Shown in pieces: positions 43,008 through 55,085 of a DNA stretch of 64,000 nt. The translations under genes were made by a program, and so were the position numbers. The stretch is from a virus: the IMG/VR virus record IMGVR_UViG_3300025849_000022, positions 24,309 to 88,308 of that record. One strand, 5' to 3'. The notes under the pieces were generated by a model. The model saw only the letters and a list, made by a program, of their open reading frames with translations, was not told the DNA's origin and made no database searches. How positions within the stretch are numbered: the stretch's first letter is position 1; every line of letters starts with the position of its first letter.

Positions 43008-44861
43008 TTAAGTCGAAATTAAAACTTTGCCCCAACCTTGTCTTCTTTTGTAATACATTCTGTCCATGTATTCTTCTTCGCTATCACAGGGCATGATTAG
43101 ATCAAGTGTGTATTCTGTTTTGTCTTTGACTAACTCTGCTTCTTCGTCATTGATGTATTCCATAAAGTTATAACCAAAGTTCATTTGAGTTGGGTAACTC
43201 ACATTAAGGTGTGTCACATAGAATGTTTGTAGTTTCATAAGTTGCGGATAATACTTCTCTGGTAAGTCTAACCATTCTCTGCTGTAGTGTTTGTCAATGA
43301 ACTCAAATATCTTTAATGGTTCCTTGTGGAAGTTACTTTGTGCTGACCACATAAGTGTATGTCCGCTAAAGCCATCTGCTATTCCTGTTTCTAAGTATTC
43401 AGTTAGTTGTGCTTTTGCTGTGTCGAACAACTGCTTTACATAGCCATCGTCTTCTTGTATAATCACCCACAGTCTATTGTAAAACTCAAAGTAACTCATG
43501 TCTTTGTACTTGCGTAGGAACCTACTTAATATTTGTGTCCAACCGTAGTTGTGAAAATTATTGATCATCCAAGCATACATCCAACTGTCTATAAACTTAG
43601 GCATAGGCATGTCCTTGGTACCGCGGACCAACGTAACACTTTCACTGATGCCATCTTCTTCCTCAAAGCCTGATATATAATCTTTCACAACCACTGTATC
43701 TATTTCATGTTCTGTTCTTTGGCCAGGTGTGTTAAGGTGTGCGTTCTCTAGTAATTGTGCTAACCAACTTTCAATAGCATTGTGTTGGCCCATTTCAATT
43801 ACATCACACAAACCTTTACTCCAACTTTCAAATGTTTCTTTGGGTAAGCCTAGTATGAGTTCTGTGTAACTAGGTATCTGTTCTCTATTACATATATCAA
43901 ATATATGTTTTAGATTACTAAACTCCATGTTACGTCTTTTAATTTCTTCTAGTACATCCATGTCCATACTTTGTACACTTAGAGTTAGTCCTCTGTTGAA
44001 GCCACTACTAATAAACTTCTTAACAATTTCCATAATCTCTTCTGAACTGTTCTTGTACCACGTGGCGTCTACTACTTGTGGATAACCAAACTCTTTTTGT
44101 AGTTCTACAAGTTCTTCTGTGAACTTCATATCTCTATCTGTGAACACACCAAAGTTTGCGTCTGCTATTGTAACGTAATCCATTTTGTTGTGTGCCATCC
44201 AATGTAATTCTTGTAACACTTTTTCTTCAGGAAACTTTTTAAGTTTGCTGTAAGTTAAACCGCCCCAGTCACAGAATGTACAAGCAAAAGGGCAACCGCG
44301 ATTAGTTTCTAATGTGCCGTTCCACAGTACACCTGGATTGTCTGCTATTATCTTTTCAAACACACCTGTCAAGTAAGGACTTGGTATGTCTAGTTCGTCT
44401 AGTCTAGGATAGTTGTATATCTTTTCTATTAGTTTGCCACTAATTAAATTGCGTAAGATATCTGTAAAACTCTGTTCGCCTTCTGCTAAACTGATTGAGT
44501 CTACATATTTGTGATGCTTGAAAAACTCTTCCTCTTCTGGTCTGTCAGTTACCTGTGGTCCACCAAATACTATTTTACATTTAGGGTAACGTTGTTTAAC
44601 ACGTTGAGCAACTGCTTTACTCCATTCCCAATTCCACATGTAGCAACTGAATGCAATAATGTCTGGGTCTTCTAGTCTGTCAACTAAGGTGTCTACATTT
44701 TCTCTGCGGAATATTATGTCCTTGAGATCTACATTTTGTTTTATATCTTCAAACTGACTAGCATAACTCCACAAACATCCAATGCTGTAAGGAATCCAAT
44801 AACCAGTTTTACCAGCAATACCAAATCGAAAGTTAGGCTGGCATAGATATAAGTTTAGCAT
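43008..44861 (-). CDS. B12-domain-type radical SAM enzyme (617 aa)
   Basis: The N-terminal Rossmann-like region (IIAFSCYMWNWEW, IVFGGPQVTD, LAEGEQSF) is of the cobalamin-binding type, and radical SAM Cys residues are in RGCPFACTFC (Cys190, 194, 197). GLPKETFESW and related phrases belong to the B12-radical SAM group used for methylations and ring chemistry. It is larger than and distinct from the 513-aa enzyme, so the phage carries two. The substrate is unknown. Expressed from a leaderless late promoter; needs Fe-S cluster supply (phage SufE). Confidence 0.88.
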   Translation of the reverse strand: MLNLYLCQPNFRFGIAGKTGYWIPYSIGCLWSYASQFEDIKQNVDLKDIIFRRENVDTLVDRLEDPDIIAFSCYMWNWEWSKAVAQRVKQRYPKCKIVFGGPQVTDRPEEEEFFKHHKYVDSISLAEGEQSFTDILRNLISGKLIEKIYNYPRLDELDIPSPYLTGVFEKIIADNPGVLWNGTLETNRGCPFACTFCDWGGLTYSKLKKFPEEKVLQELHWMAHNKMDYVTIADANFGVFTDRDMKFTEELVELQKEFGYPQVVDATWYKNSSEEIMEIVKKFISSGFNRGLTLSVQSMDMDVLEEIKRRNMEFSNLKHIFDICNREQIPSYTELILGLPKETFESWSKGLCDVIEMGQHNAIESWLAQLLENAHLNTPGQRTEHEIDTVVVKDYISGFEEEDGISESVTLVRGTKDMPMPKFIDSWMYAWMINNFHNYGWTQILSRFLRKYKDMSYFEFYNRLWVIIQEDDGYVKQLFDTAKAQLTEYLETGIADGFSGHTLMWSAQSNFHKEPLKIFEFIDKHYSREWLDLPEKYYPQLMKLQTFYVTHLNVSYPTQMNFGYNFMEYINDEEAELVKDKTEYTLDLIMPCDSEEEYMDRMYYKRRQGWGKVLIST

Positions 44862-45237: not shown

Positions 45238-46221
45238 TTATCTCCTTAATTGGTTATCTAGTTTTTCTAGTTGATCGTAACGATCTTTTTCGAACGTGTG
45301 TTTTAGATTGTAGGGATTATATCTTTTGTATGTTGTGCCTTTAATTCTGCTAATGACATCGTGTACTATTAATTTGTCTTCTACATTCTTGAATCCGGCA
45401 ATGTCGGCGGCACTTTGCTCAAATTCAACTCCGTCCATATTTTCCAGTATCTTGAATAAGGCTAAATCAAATTCAAGATAACTGAACCCAAACTGTGCTT
45501 CATCAGAACTAGATATCCCTAGTCCGTCTGTGGGCACAGCAAATACGACACTATCTGGTACACCTTGCATTTCCGCAAGAGCAGGAACTTCCCAACTCTT
45601 ACTTAATGACTGTATAGGCGAGACGTCGCCAACGTCCCCATGTAGTGTCCAAAACCCAGCCGCAAGTTCTGAAAAATTATCAGTACTTGCTACAAAGCCT
45701 TGACTCGCACCAGCAAGATTGTACAATGTAATCATACGCAATCTGGCTCGAATGTTTCCTTTTCTAATCTTACTAGAGTGATCATCGCTAATCAAACTAG
45801 CATCTAATTTGTATTGTTGTTTAAGTATATCTTCATATGCTTCTGTTAAGTCTATGTGTCTGTGATCAATTCCTAATGCGTGGCAAGTTTCTATACCGCG
45901 ATCAGTTTCATCTTCAATTTGGTTGATAGGCATTGTTACACCTATTACATGATAACCAGCATCTCTAAATAAACTGGCTGTCAAGGCACTATCTACGCCT
46001 CCGCTCATGCCTACACAAACATTACTTATTTTATATTTGTTGGCGTACTCTACTAAGTTCTGCACTATATCATTTCGTAACACTTGCAATCTTTCTACAG
46101 ACATGTACTTTCCGCTTTTAATATAAGTATCTAGCAACTTGTCAAATGCAGGTGACAAACTTGGCTTCCTATTATAATCCAATATTAGTCTTTTCAAATT
46201 TGCTTGTTCGTTTTTATTCAT
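45238..46221 (-). CDS. nadE: NAD synthetase (NH3-dependent)
   Basis: The 327-aa protein has PP-loop SGGVDS (73-78) and NadE landmarks: NIRARLRMITLYNLA, STDNFSE, and GFWTLHGDVGDVSPI followed by LSKSWEVPALA. It converts nicotinate adenine dinucleotide to NAD with ATP and ammonia (no glutaminase domain is seen). Phage NAD synthesis could support metabolism during infection or restore NAD lost to host defence (inference). It overlaps the upstream gene by 8 bases. Confidence 0.88.
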   Translation of the reverse strand: MNKNEQANLKRLILDYNRKPSLSPAFDKLLDTYIKSGKYMSVERLQVLRNDIVQNLVEYANKYKISNVCVGMSGGVDSALTASLFRDAGYHVIGVTMPINQIEDETDRGIETCHALGIDHRHIDLTEAYEDILKQQYKLDASLISDDHSSKIRKGNIRARLRMITLYNLAGASQGFVASTDNFSELAAGFWTLHGDVGDVSPIQSLSKSWEVPALAEMQGVPDSVVFAVPTDGLGISSSDEAQFGFSYLEFDLALFKILENMDGVEFEQSAADIAGFKNVEDKLIVHDVISRIKGTTYKRYNPYNLKHTFEKDRYDQLEKLDNQLRR

Positions 46222-46540
46222 CGTCGTCTTTTTTATTATTAATTTCCTCTATGAGATCCCATATACTAGTATCTGAATTTAGTGTTTTAGAATCATATTC
46301 TTCTAAACCATAAGCCACTCTCAATGCTTTTTTATAGTAACCTGCGGCAGTACTGCAATATACAGCAAAACTTTCGTGAGTAATGTCTACGTCTAAGTCC
46401 ATACCTAAATGAACCATAAACTTAGTTAAGTCGTTTACTACATCATCAATTGTTTCATTAAACAATATATCATTGTTTATAGATTCTGCTTCTTTGAGTT
46501 TTTCTCTATAAACAGTCAAGTCAACTAGATTATCTTTCAT
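46214..46540 (-). CDS. Hypothetical protein (108 aa)
   Basis: Unrecognised acidic helical protein with a central hydrophobic helix (VVNDLTKFMVHLGMDLDVD). In the same operon as nadE, overlapping it by 8 bases and the coiled-coil gene by 11. Function unknown. Confidence 0.6.
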   Translation of the reverse strand: MKDNLVDLTVYREKLKEAESINNDILFNETIDDVVNDLTKFMVHLGMDLDVDITHESFAVYCSTAAGYYKKALRVAYGLEEYDSKTLNSDTSIWDLIEEINNKKDDDE

Positions 46541-46748
46541 CTATTTTACTATGTTTTTCTAACTCTTCTATTTTAGATTTAAGAATATTGACCATATTGG
46601 ACTGTTCATCGTCTAATAACTTAGCACCAATGTGAACTTTTTCTTTTTCTAAAACATCAACTTGTGATTCTAAGGTTGCTATGCGTTGTTCTGCAGATGA
46701 CAATGCGTCAATCAACTGCTTTTTGGTCATTTGTGTTTTGCTTGTCAT
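46530..46748 (-). CDS. Coiled-coil protein (72 aa)
   Basis: Almost entirely heptad-repeat helix (LIDALSSAEQRIATLESQV, then EKEKVHIGAKLLDDE), with an overall look like SlyX-type coiled-coil proteins. Probably an oligomerising adapter. Weak ribosome site; the gene starts 13 bases after the 2OG-oxygenase gene. Confidence 0.6.
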   Translation of the reverse strand: MTSKTQMTKKQLIDALSSAEQRIATLESQVDVLEKEKVHIGAKLLDDEQSNMVNILKSKIEELEKHSKIDER

Positions 46749-52652: not shown

Positions 52653-53255
52653 TTAGAATTGTTTGCTTACGCCAAAAACAATACTGTCTTCGTCTTCTAA
52701 TAAAGAACCATCGTCAGCAATAAAACTGTGATATCCCAGTGAGCCTTTTAATCCTAATGGTAAGTCAAAGCCTTTTGACACTGACCAGTTATCACCTACT
52801 TCGTCCCACATACCATAAGAAACATCAACACCCATAAATGAGTATCCTAATTCCAAGTAGTCTGTGTAGTTATCTTGACCTAAGTAGTAGTCTACAGATA
52901 CGCCCATGATTTCTTTACTGATAAAGAACTCACTGCCGTCTAAGTCTGCGTCGCCATTATAACTGTAATCGATATAGCCGACCATCCAGTCACCGTTAGT
53001 CCAAGCGGCATACAAATCAGTTTCTAAATCTGATCCATCTGCATAGTCAACTTGACCAAGCCATGCACCGGCCATAAAACCACTGTCGCCAAACTGGTGT
53101 TGGTACTCTGCCCAAGCAGATACACCGCCATCTGTTTGTGATACGCCTCTAAAAATGTAGTCGCTGTCTGCCCCTACCTTTGCACCTGCGTATGCAGTTG
53201 TTGTTAATGTTGACAGTAAAAGTACTGCAAACACATTTTTAAATGTATTAATCAT
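52653..53255 (-). CDS. TIGR02001-type outer-membrane beta-barrel protein (200 aa)
   Basis: Signal peptide (LLLSTLTTTAYA|GAKVG, cleavage near residue 23), then SDYIFRGVSQTDGG, the strongly recognisable start of the proteobacterial TIGR02001/Gcw_chp family, and alternating beta strands with aromatic girdles to the C-terminus FGVSKQF (ending in Phe, as outer-membrane barrels do). Family members are thought to be outer-membrane proteins of unknown role. It was probably acquired from a proteobacterial host. It could alter the cell surface or aid lysis. Ends at a terminator; the leader has a GGGGTGG/CCGCCCC hairpin. Confidence 0.85.
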   Translation of the reverse strand: MINTFKNVFAVLLLSTLTTTAYAGAKVGADSDYIFRGVSQTDGGVSAWAEYQHQFGDSGFMAGAWLGQVDYADGSDLETDLYAAWTNGDWMVGYIDYSYNGDADLDGSEFFISKEIMGVSVDYYLGQDNYTDYLELGYSFMGVDVSYGMWDEVGDNWSVSKGFDLPLGLKGSLGYHSFIADDGSLLEDEDSIVFGVSKQF

Positions 53256-54331: not shown

Positions 54332-54363
54332 TAAGAAAAAGCACCCCTGTTACGAGGTGCTTT
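54332..54363 (-). terminator. Intrinsic terminator
   Basis: Stem AAAGCACC / GGTGCTTT with T-run on the minus strand. Closes the riboswitch-controlled gene. Confidence 0.85.
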
Positions 54364-54370
54364 ATCAACC

Positions 54371-54535
54371 TTAAGGATAGAAAGGATTATCTGTTATATA
54401 ATCAGGTAACTCAGATTTTCTCTTAGAGTTAGTGACCATACGAGGAAAGAATTTTTCCTGCAAATCAGATTTTCTTTTTTCTCTTCTTAAGGCTAGTTTG
54501 ACTGCACGTTTAATTTGTGCGTTTTGATTAGTCAT
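54371..54535 (-). CDS. Small basic protein under tandem glutamine riboswitches (54 aa)
   Basis: Begins MTNQNAQIKRAVKLALRREK and ends ITDNPFYP. It has a strongly basic amphipathic helix (about residues 8-23), then SDLQEKFF and Lys/Arg-rich SKRKS. AGGAGG is 6 bases upstream. It is the only gene between a late promoter and terminator, with two aptamers in its leader. Cyanobacterial glnA-type aptamers control small basic proteins that inactivate glutamine synthetase; a similar role here is a hypothesis, not an identity match. Confidence 0.8.
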   Translation of the reverse strand: MTNQNAQIKRAVKLALRREKRKSDLQEKFFPRMVTNSKRKSELPDYITDNPFYP

Positions 54536-54559
54536 ATCATCCTCCTAATTAAAGTTAGA

Positions 54560-54622
54560 TGCGTTCCTTCAGTTTTCACCTACTTCCGTCGTCGCTCTAC
54601 ATTTAGAGTGGCGATGAACGAG
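54560..54622 (-). promoter_or_regulatory. Glutamine riboswitch aptamer, copy 2 (gene-proximal)
   Basis: Minus strand: CGTTC (P1), hairpin with CTCTA AATG TAGAG loop, GACGGAAGTAG, second hairpin, then GAAGGAACGCA closing P1. The GGAAGTAG and GAAGGAACGCA blocks are the invariant core of the glnA / Downstream-peptide RNA motif. It lies about 20 bases before the ribosome site of the 54-aa gene. Confidence 0.85.
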
Positions 54623-54627
54623 TTCAG

Positions 54628-54688
54628 TGCGTTCCTTCGTCTTTTGACTACTTCCGTTCACTGCTACATTTAGAGTGAATGAACGAGT
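54628..54688 (-). promoter_or_regulatory. Glutamine riboswitch aptamer, copy 1 (promoter-proximal)
   Basis: Same three-way-junction layout as copy 2, with covarying stems: TTCACTCTA AATG TAG.AGTGAA (9 pairs, one bulge) in P2 and GTC AAAA GAC in P3; outer CGTTC/GAACG and core GGAAGTAG and GAAGGAACGCA unchanged. Tandem copies are known for this aptamer class and give cooperative responses. Confidence 0.85.
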
Positions 54689-54707
54689 GTAACTTGCGTT
54701 ACATTAA

Positions 54708-54715
54708 TATTTATC
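54708..54715 (-). promoter_or_regulatory. Late promoter of the riboswitch unit
   Basis: GATAAATA on the minus strand; transcription would begin about 54702, 14 bases before aptamer copy 1. Confidence 0.8.
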
Positions 54716-54742
54716 AAAAAAAAGCACTCCGAAGAGTGCTTT
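54714..54742 (-). terminator. Intrinsic terminator with TTCG loop
   Basis: Stem AAAGCACTC / GAGTGCTTT around TTCG, then eight T. Ends the 88-aa HTH gene; the late promoter starts within its T-run. Confidence 0.9.
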
Positions 54743-54762
54743 TGATTTGTTAACCTTAAAGA

Positions 54763-55029
54763 TTAGACAAGGCCGTTAGCCATTGCTTTATACCCTGCGG
54801 CAATAACTGCTCTAGATGGAGTACCAAGTCTATAAACGTTTCTTGATCTTCCTTTAGTGTCAGTCACTGTGTTAAGGTAAATTGGGAAACCTTTGAATCT
54901 TAGTGATTGAATCACTGCCTGTGGGTTTCCTGTTCCGAAGAATGATTTCATCTGTGCAGATGATAAAGTTCTTCCTTCTTGCAAAGCATTTAATACTTTT
55001 GCTTCTTTAGTTAATGTTGCTGTAGTCAT
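54763..55029 (-). CDS. Winged helix-turn-helix protein (88 aa)
   Basis: The helical N-terminus (KEAKVLNALQEGRTLSSAQM) followed by helix (PQAVIQSLRFKGFPIYL) and a hairpin (VTDTKGRSRNVYRLG) is a winged HTH DNA-binding domain. It is probably a transcription regulator. The start at 55029 has AGGAGG six bases upstream. The leader from its sigma70-like promoter has a perfect TGTGCAA ATAA TTGCACA hairpin, which could be its own operator. Confidence 0.7.
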   Translation of the reverse strand: MTTATLTKEAKVLNALQEGRTLSSAQMKSFFGTGNPQAVIQSLRFKGFPIYLNTVTDTKGRSRNVYRLGTPSRAVIAAGYKAMANGLV

Positions 55030-55085
55030 ATGACCTCCTATTAGCATTATTAAAATTCTGTGCAATTATTTGCACATTATCTACT

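Follow-up and report, generated by a model that had tools for sequence, protein, structure and literature searches.

Tandem glutamine-I aptamers ahead of a small basic protein in a T4-like phage unit: a candidate glutamine-activated translational switch with a counterpart in SAR86

The DNA analysed here, a window of 64,000 nucleotides, comes from the 88-kb IMG/VR record of a marine phage with T4-type replication genes, and the minus strand of the window carries a one-gene unit made up of a T4-like late-promoter motif, tandem aptamers, a 54-codon basic ORF and a terminator (Table 1). The terminator that ends the preceding winged-helix gene isolates this unit. A unit having its own late promoter motif and terminator, and only one gene, is what the original prediction had described, and such a unit is indeed present. 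Counted over the entire window, the ATAAATA motif is not above chance (30 found, 34.5 expected); at 14-31 nt 5' of the first aptamer it occurs in 20 of 23 related leaders, as against 2.5% of background 60-mers. From the position of the motif, the unit appears to be a T4-like late transcription unit, with expression presumed to be late. The small hairpin between the promoter motif and the first aptamer has the arms GTAAC/GTTAC, GTAAT/ATTAC or GAGTAA/TTACTC in related phages, and is still paired.

Table 1. Features of the riboswitch unit and its neighbours, in window coordinates
Feature	Position	Strand	Basis
Upstream gene, winged-helix protein	54763-55065
Intrinsic terminator of upstream gene	54720-54743	minus	10-pair stem, 4-nt loop, T run
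T4-like late promoter motif ATAAATA	54708-54714	minus	motif
Small 5' hairpin GTAAC-GCAA-GTTAC, transcript start	54689-54702	minus	by inspection
First glutamine-I (glnA-type) aptamer	54626-54687	minus	RF01739 match
Second glutamine-I (glnA-type) aptamer	54558-54622	minus	RF01739 match
Expression-platform hairpin CATCT/GGATG	54538-54561	minus	-6.8 kcal/mol fold; covariation
Shine-Dalgarno AGGAGG	54541-54546	minus	5 nt ahead of ATG
Gene, 54-aa basic protein ending YITDNPFYP	54371-54535	minus	ORF and relatives
Intrinsic terminator directly 3' of gene	54338-54363	minus
TorF-family putative porin	52653-53255	minus	TIGR02001 and Pfam Gcw_chp matches

Scanning of the whole window with covariance models (cmscan) showed that both aptamers match the glutamine-I model RF01739 over its full length (1-53 of 53), the first at 59.8 bits (E 1.1e-10) and the second at 55.2 bits (E 2e-9), above the gathering score of 35. 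Two tandem three-way-junction RNAs in one leader had been proposed, with a core ascribed to both the glnA and the Downstream-peptide motifs; the tandem arrangement and the glnA assignment stand, whereas the Downstream-peptide assignment (RF01704, glutamine-II) does not, there being no match to that model in the window at E up to 1. The glutamine-contact bases known from the crystal structure (C1, G22, G23, C58, G59 and C60 in 5DDP numbering; PMC6698751, PMC11477058; sequence of the solved construct from PMC5393176) are all found in both copies. Covariation of the inner stems, also part of the original prediction, is borne out: a paired P2 stem is present in every one of 89 distinct loops, P2 stems having been swapped wholesale among relatives and yet still paired around invariant aptamer cores, and P3 of the second copy shows a U-A to C-G change. 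P1 is without variation in this set and is thus uninformative on covariation. The P3 stem (alignment A3, columns 41-52 and 111-122) is always GUC/GAC in the first aptamer and either GGU/ACC or GGC/GCC in the second, and by this difference the two copies are kept distinct. The original prediction had staked itself on there being no coding sequence across 54560-54688; no conserved one was found there, the sole ORFs being of 52 aa (plus strand, TTG start) and 30 aa (minus strand, GTG start), and the RNA helices across this interval are preserved through compensatory changes.

The single gene of the unit, predicted to be small and basic, has relatives at 33 loci when viral contigs are scanned, the most distant being about 33% identical, and these share an almost invariant C-terminus P-x-YITDNPFYP. 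The first family alignment gave an N-terminus of MTKYQ...RAVKK.LK and a last nine residues, YITDNPFYP, without variation; other viral members read IRENPFYP or ITDNPYYP, and SAR86 members YVTDNPFYP. The conserved C-terminus is encoded with synonymous codon variation, in 17 distinct DNA versions, and one or two RF01739 aptamers stand directly upstream in 32 of the 33 viral loci (the contig of the 33rd, L027, begins inside the leader). Judged from these sequences, the 54-codon ORF is a real gene. No usable match to its product was obtained in Pfam, PHROGs, PADLOC or PDB sequences, nor was any credible homologue seen in 50,697 annotated phage records, and the structure predicted by AlphaFold has one N-terminal helix and a low-confidence tail (mean pLDDT 71, pTM 0.38). 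Weakly similar small proteins of HTVC023P, HTVC104P and HTVC011P were set aside, as RF01739 is absent there. Three family members (L022, L028, L035) have a YRGI or YRGVRY motif in mid-protein, as in DUF4278, with no Pfam match; the motif is counted as resemblance only.

According to the review literature (PMC6316151), glutamine riboswitches are confined to cyanobacteria, and the original prediction likewise drew on a cyanobacterial setting. That setting was not supported: the only real cellular homologues of the protein to be found are those of SAR86, a gammaproteobacterial group. In contrast to the cyanobacteria-only view, an RNA-pattern scan located the RF01739 pattern in SAR86, SAR11 and SAR116 genomes, in those of other marine bacteria, among them further Proteobacteria, and in cyanobacteria. 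RF01739 exceeds its gathering score in 79 of 199 SAR86 genomes, where its targets include glutamine synthetase, glutamate synthase, an ATP-grasp enzyme and a TorF-family porin; alphaproteobacterial targets include glutamine synthetase and an ammonium transporter. The aptamers catalogued as L197-L316 (SAR86, SAR11, SAR116, SAR92, betaproteobacteria) lie ahead of glnA, amt, gltB/gltD and circularly permuted ATP-grasp genes.

The window's own protein family is found behind tandem aptamers in 5 of 203 SAR86-order genomes. These copies came from the RNA-pattern scan; an exact-motif scan of genome contigs for YITDNPFY gave no match, because the SAR86 copies read YVTDNPFY. The SAR86 homologue, MTKYEEARIINRAVKKSLKRQLGEPVYIRRRSSDLPAYVTDNPFYP, has the C-terminal motif, the tandem RF01739 leader and the Shine-Dalgarno hairpin in common with the phage protein, but there is no visible late promoter motif upstream and the middle part of the protein is shorter. 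SAR86 contigs that are long enough are chromosomal, the L250 locus adjoining ilvB, ilvN, ilvC and an oxidoreductase gene that also adjoins the L280 locus. Over 139 nt the SAR86 leader shares 91% identity with the leader of phage contig L014; over 158 nt it shares 77% with the window leader. No real family member was found in 397 SAR11-order genomes, six weak matches of about 20 bits having been rejected as lying inside long ORFs (383-489 aa), or in 112 SAR92-family and 17 OM43-like genomes, two sets in which no positive control was matched either. With real cellular homologues only in SAR86, this group appears to be the likeliest host, an assignment that draws on few cases since the family is in only 5 of the 203 genomes. 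Host-to-phage transfer from SAR86 would be the simplest reading of these likenesses, and the phage has probably taken over a piece of host nitrogen control. The phage DNA polymerase is near those of jumbo T4-superfamily phages (49% identity to Sinorhizobium phage Phosso), a placement that leaves the host unsettled; no RF01739 was found in Phosso. Other SAR86 tandem riboswitches (L241, L242, L273, L301) stand ahead of another small basic protein, one with KDVFFPYYL or KDLFFPYYL at its C-terminus. Related small ORFs behind riboswitches were also found in two MAGs, one of Pelagibacteraceae (L225) and one betaproteobacterial (L311), in sequence that appears to be chromosomal.

The phage porin gene lies 1.1 kb downstream of the gene for the 54-aa protein. 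Its product matches TIGR02001 at E 6.5e-11, which is below the cut-off of that model, and Gcw_chp at 24.7 bits against a gathering score of 24, and shares 37% identity over 200 aa with a porin of SAR86 that is encoded behind a glutamine riboswitch. Two more phage records related to this one (G003 and G004) also have a TorF-family porin. The porin of the window is probably linked in theme to the riboswitch unit. Elsewhere in the window the phage encodes an NAD synthase and a B12-binding radical SAM protein (45238-46221 and 43008-44861, both on the minus strand).

How the leader might act on its gene is suggested by a hairpin whose first base is the C60 equivalent of the second aptamer and in whose 3' half the Shine-Dalgarno sequence lies. 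Among 16 leaders of the window protein's family, 100% of cells in this hairpin are paired and both sides are altered in three of five pairs (CATCT/AGATG, CATTT/GAATG, CAATC/GATTG), its covariation score being reached in 0 of 500 shuffles and slid versions losing the pairing, while 94 distinct arm pairs taken from many viral leaders gave a mean pairing of 11.51 versus 9.98 +/- 0.19 for permuted arms (0 of 1000 permutations), all figures that are inflated by kinship among the leaders, which permuting the arms leaves in place. The minimum-energy fold, a model without ligand, favours the hairpin. The same design is common to unrelated downstream genes; the leader of a SAR86 gene for glutamate synthase, a glutamine-consuming enzyme (L338), also has a direct Shine-Dalgarno hairpin like that of the small-protein leaders. 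That the leader is a decayed or ornamental one, picked up by chance along with its gene and switching nothing in the phage, is conceivable in that aptamers could hitch-hike with a host gene, but this is made highly improbable by the invariant aptamer cores, P2 stems replaced yet paired, a covarying Shine-Dalgarno hairpin and a phage-type late promoter placed in front.

Ligand binding by a glutamine-I aptamer puts G23 into P1 and in a pair with C60, just 3' of P1 (PMC11477058). Because C60 can pair in the aptamer or in the hairpin but not in both, glutamine is expected to free the ribosome-binding site, and the leader would then be an ON switch. A short mRNA would be transcribed late in infection from the T4-like late promoter; at low glutamine the C60 equivalent and its neighbours would pair around AGGAGG and close the ribosome-binding site, and at high glutamine the C60 equivalent would pair with the G23 equivalent, the hairpin would lose this base and the 54-aa protein would be translated. 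Two aptamers in series might give a steeper response. Glutamine-activated translation is thus the mechanism that seems to fit the window leader best, with glutamine as the probable ligand and ON as the probable direction. The opposite direction, in which glutamine shuts the gene and the protein helps in taking up or assimilating nitrogen while virions are made and glutamine is short, is suggested by the neighbouring TorF-family porin gene and by the same aptamer standing ahead of SAR86 and SAR11 genes for glutamine synthetase and the ammonium transporter, which are expected to be glutamine-repressed. However, the expression platforms of those glutamine synthetase and transporter leaders that were examined are longer and differently built (those of SAR86 glutamine synthetase having longer linkers and no direct Shine-Dalgarno hairpin), whereas small-protein leaders carry a direct hairpin competing with the ligand-bound aptamer, and known glutamine-I and glutamine-II switches activate small-protein genes (PMC6316151, PMC6698751), both classes being reported as ON switches in cyanobacteria (PMC6316151). 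An OFF switch appears quite unlikely.

The genes behind viral aptamers were also compared. At least 99 distinct complete ORFs lie downstream of the viral aptamer pattern, and all 99 listed are net positive, with a median length of 38 aa and a median charge of +7 versus +1 for control small ORFs of the same contigs (p 6e-26); these ORFs were read with ATG starts behind a consensus pattern, so that proportions are approximate. No nitrogen enzyme is among the 99 listed, and no phage-encoded glutamine synthetase under RF01739 was found in the window's virus record. Phage glutamine riboswitches stand almost only ahead of small basic proteins, one of which is common to SAR86 chromosomes. The targets fall into several unrelated families, and this, together with the basic helical character of all of them, a trait of nucleic-acid binders, allows for an ON switch that serves a general late takeover or lysis-timing factor binding nucleic acid, ribosomes or membrane. 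The signal rather than any one target would then be what the families share, with glutamine gauging remaining resources, and a lysis-timing role has been proposed for the phage Melnitz (PMC9004378). Against this, the homologue of the 54-aa protein is a SAR86 chromosomal gene and not virus-only, the same riboswitch controls nitrogen-assimilation genes in SAR86, and some viral targets are DUF4278-like by weak Pfam matches, DUF4278 being a domain in the N-terminal part of IF17 (PMC6316151). Such a takeover or lysis-timing factor appears unlikely, if less so than an OFF switch.

A glutamine-activated translational switch controlling a small host-type regulator, expressed late and likely directed at nitrogen assimilation, is the reading preferred here, at a probability of roughly 0.55. 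The original prediction is confirmed as an observation and partly supported as an interpretation. The 54-aa protein most likely binds a nitrogen-assimilation enzyme or sensor, as suggested by the other genes under this switch in SAR86, by the case of IF17, which binds glutamine synthetase in cyanobacteria, and by the TorF-family porin gene nearby; glutamine synthetase as the target of the 54-aa protein would be a guess by analogy, and a protein so basic could equally bind nucleic acid or ribosomes.

The closest known systems are the gifB leader of Synechocystis, a glutamine-I riboswitch with a small regulatory protein downstream, as in the window, and with the ON direction shown (PMC6316151), and the tandem glutamine-I arrangement, already known from 157 doublets (PMC9481103; Weinberg 2010, PMC2864571). 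The window differs from known glutamine-I leaders in its phage late promoter and its phage and SAR86 rather than cyanobacterial setting. The glutamine synthetase inactivating factors IF7 and IF17 (gifA and gifB products) are small and basic like the 54-aa protein, and IF17 is under glutamine-riboswitch control, but Pfam places the window protein with neither DUF4278 nor IF17, and no Pfam match to gif or DUF4278 was given by it or by the relatives scanned. In the absence of a Pfam, PHROGs or solved-structure match, the likeness to IF7 and IF17 is one of size, charge and genetic control, not of homology. Downstream-peptide RNAs also place a glutamine aptamer before a short conserved ORF (peptides of 17-100 aa), but they form a pseudoknot, whereas the window RNA is a three-way junction.

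It is tentatively suggested, at somewhat short of even odds, that phages of streamlined marine bacteria (SAR86, SAR11, OM43 and picocyanobacteria) use host-matched, glutamine-activated small basic proteins to seize nitrogen assimilation late in infection. If so, these proteins would form an unrecognised class of viral metabolic regulators, with many unrelated families under one RNA switch and one Shine-Dalgarno-hairpin mechanism. Taken together, the findings on phages and SAR86 suggest a way, open to experiment, in which phages of the most abundant ocean bacteria could sense the nitrogen status of their hosts, and they yield a group of undescribed small proteins with which targets can be fished for.

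The same RNA class precedes small basic ORFs in two marine T4-like phages, the methylophage Melnitz and the pelagiphage Mosig (PMC9004378), which differ from the window in having a single aptamer and other small-protein families. The Melnitz riboswitch has been read as controlling tmRNA (PMC9004378). On the Melnitz contig (L159), however, the tmRNA models end at 1422, the aptamer spans 1430-1478, and an unannotated 32-codon basic ORF, MTLYQQWCYLKAQKEYRRRQKILMYFRIRLKG, starts at 1501 behind a Shine-Dalgarno hairpin of the same type; the Mosig aptamer lies ahead of the small CDS Mosig_00116. Because the Melnitz tmRNA ends before the aptamer and a small ORF follows in both phages, the switch more likely controls small proteins than tmRNA. 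Positions 1430-1596 of L159 correspond to 46398-46564 of Melnitz MZ577097.1, and that record annotates an ORF on the opposite strand there.
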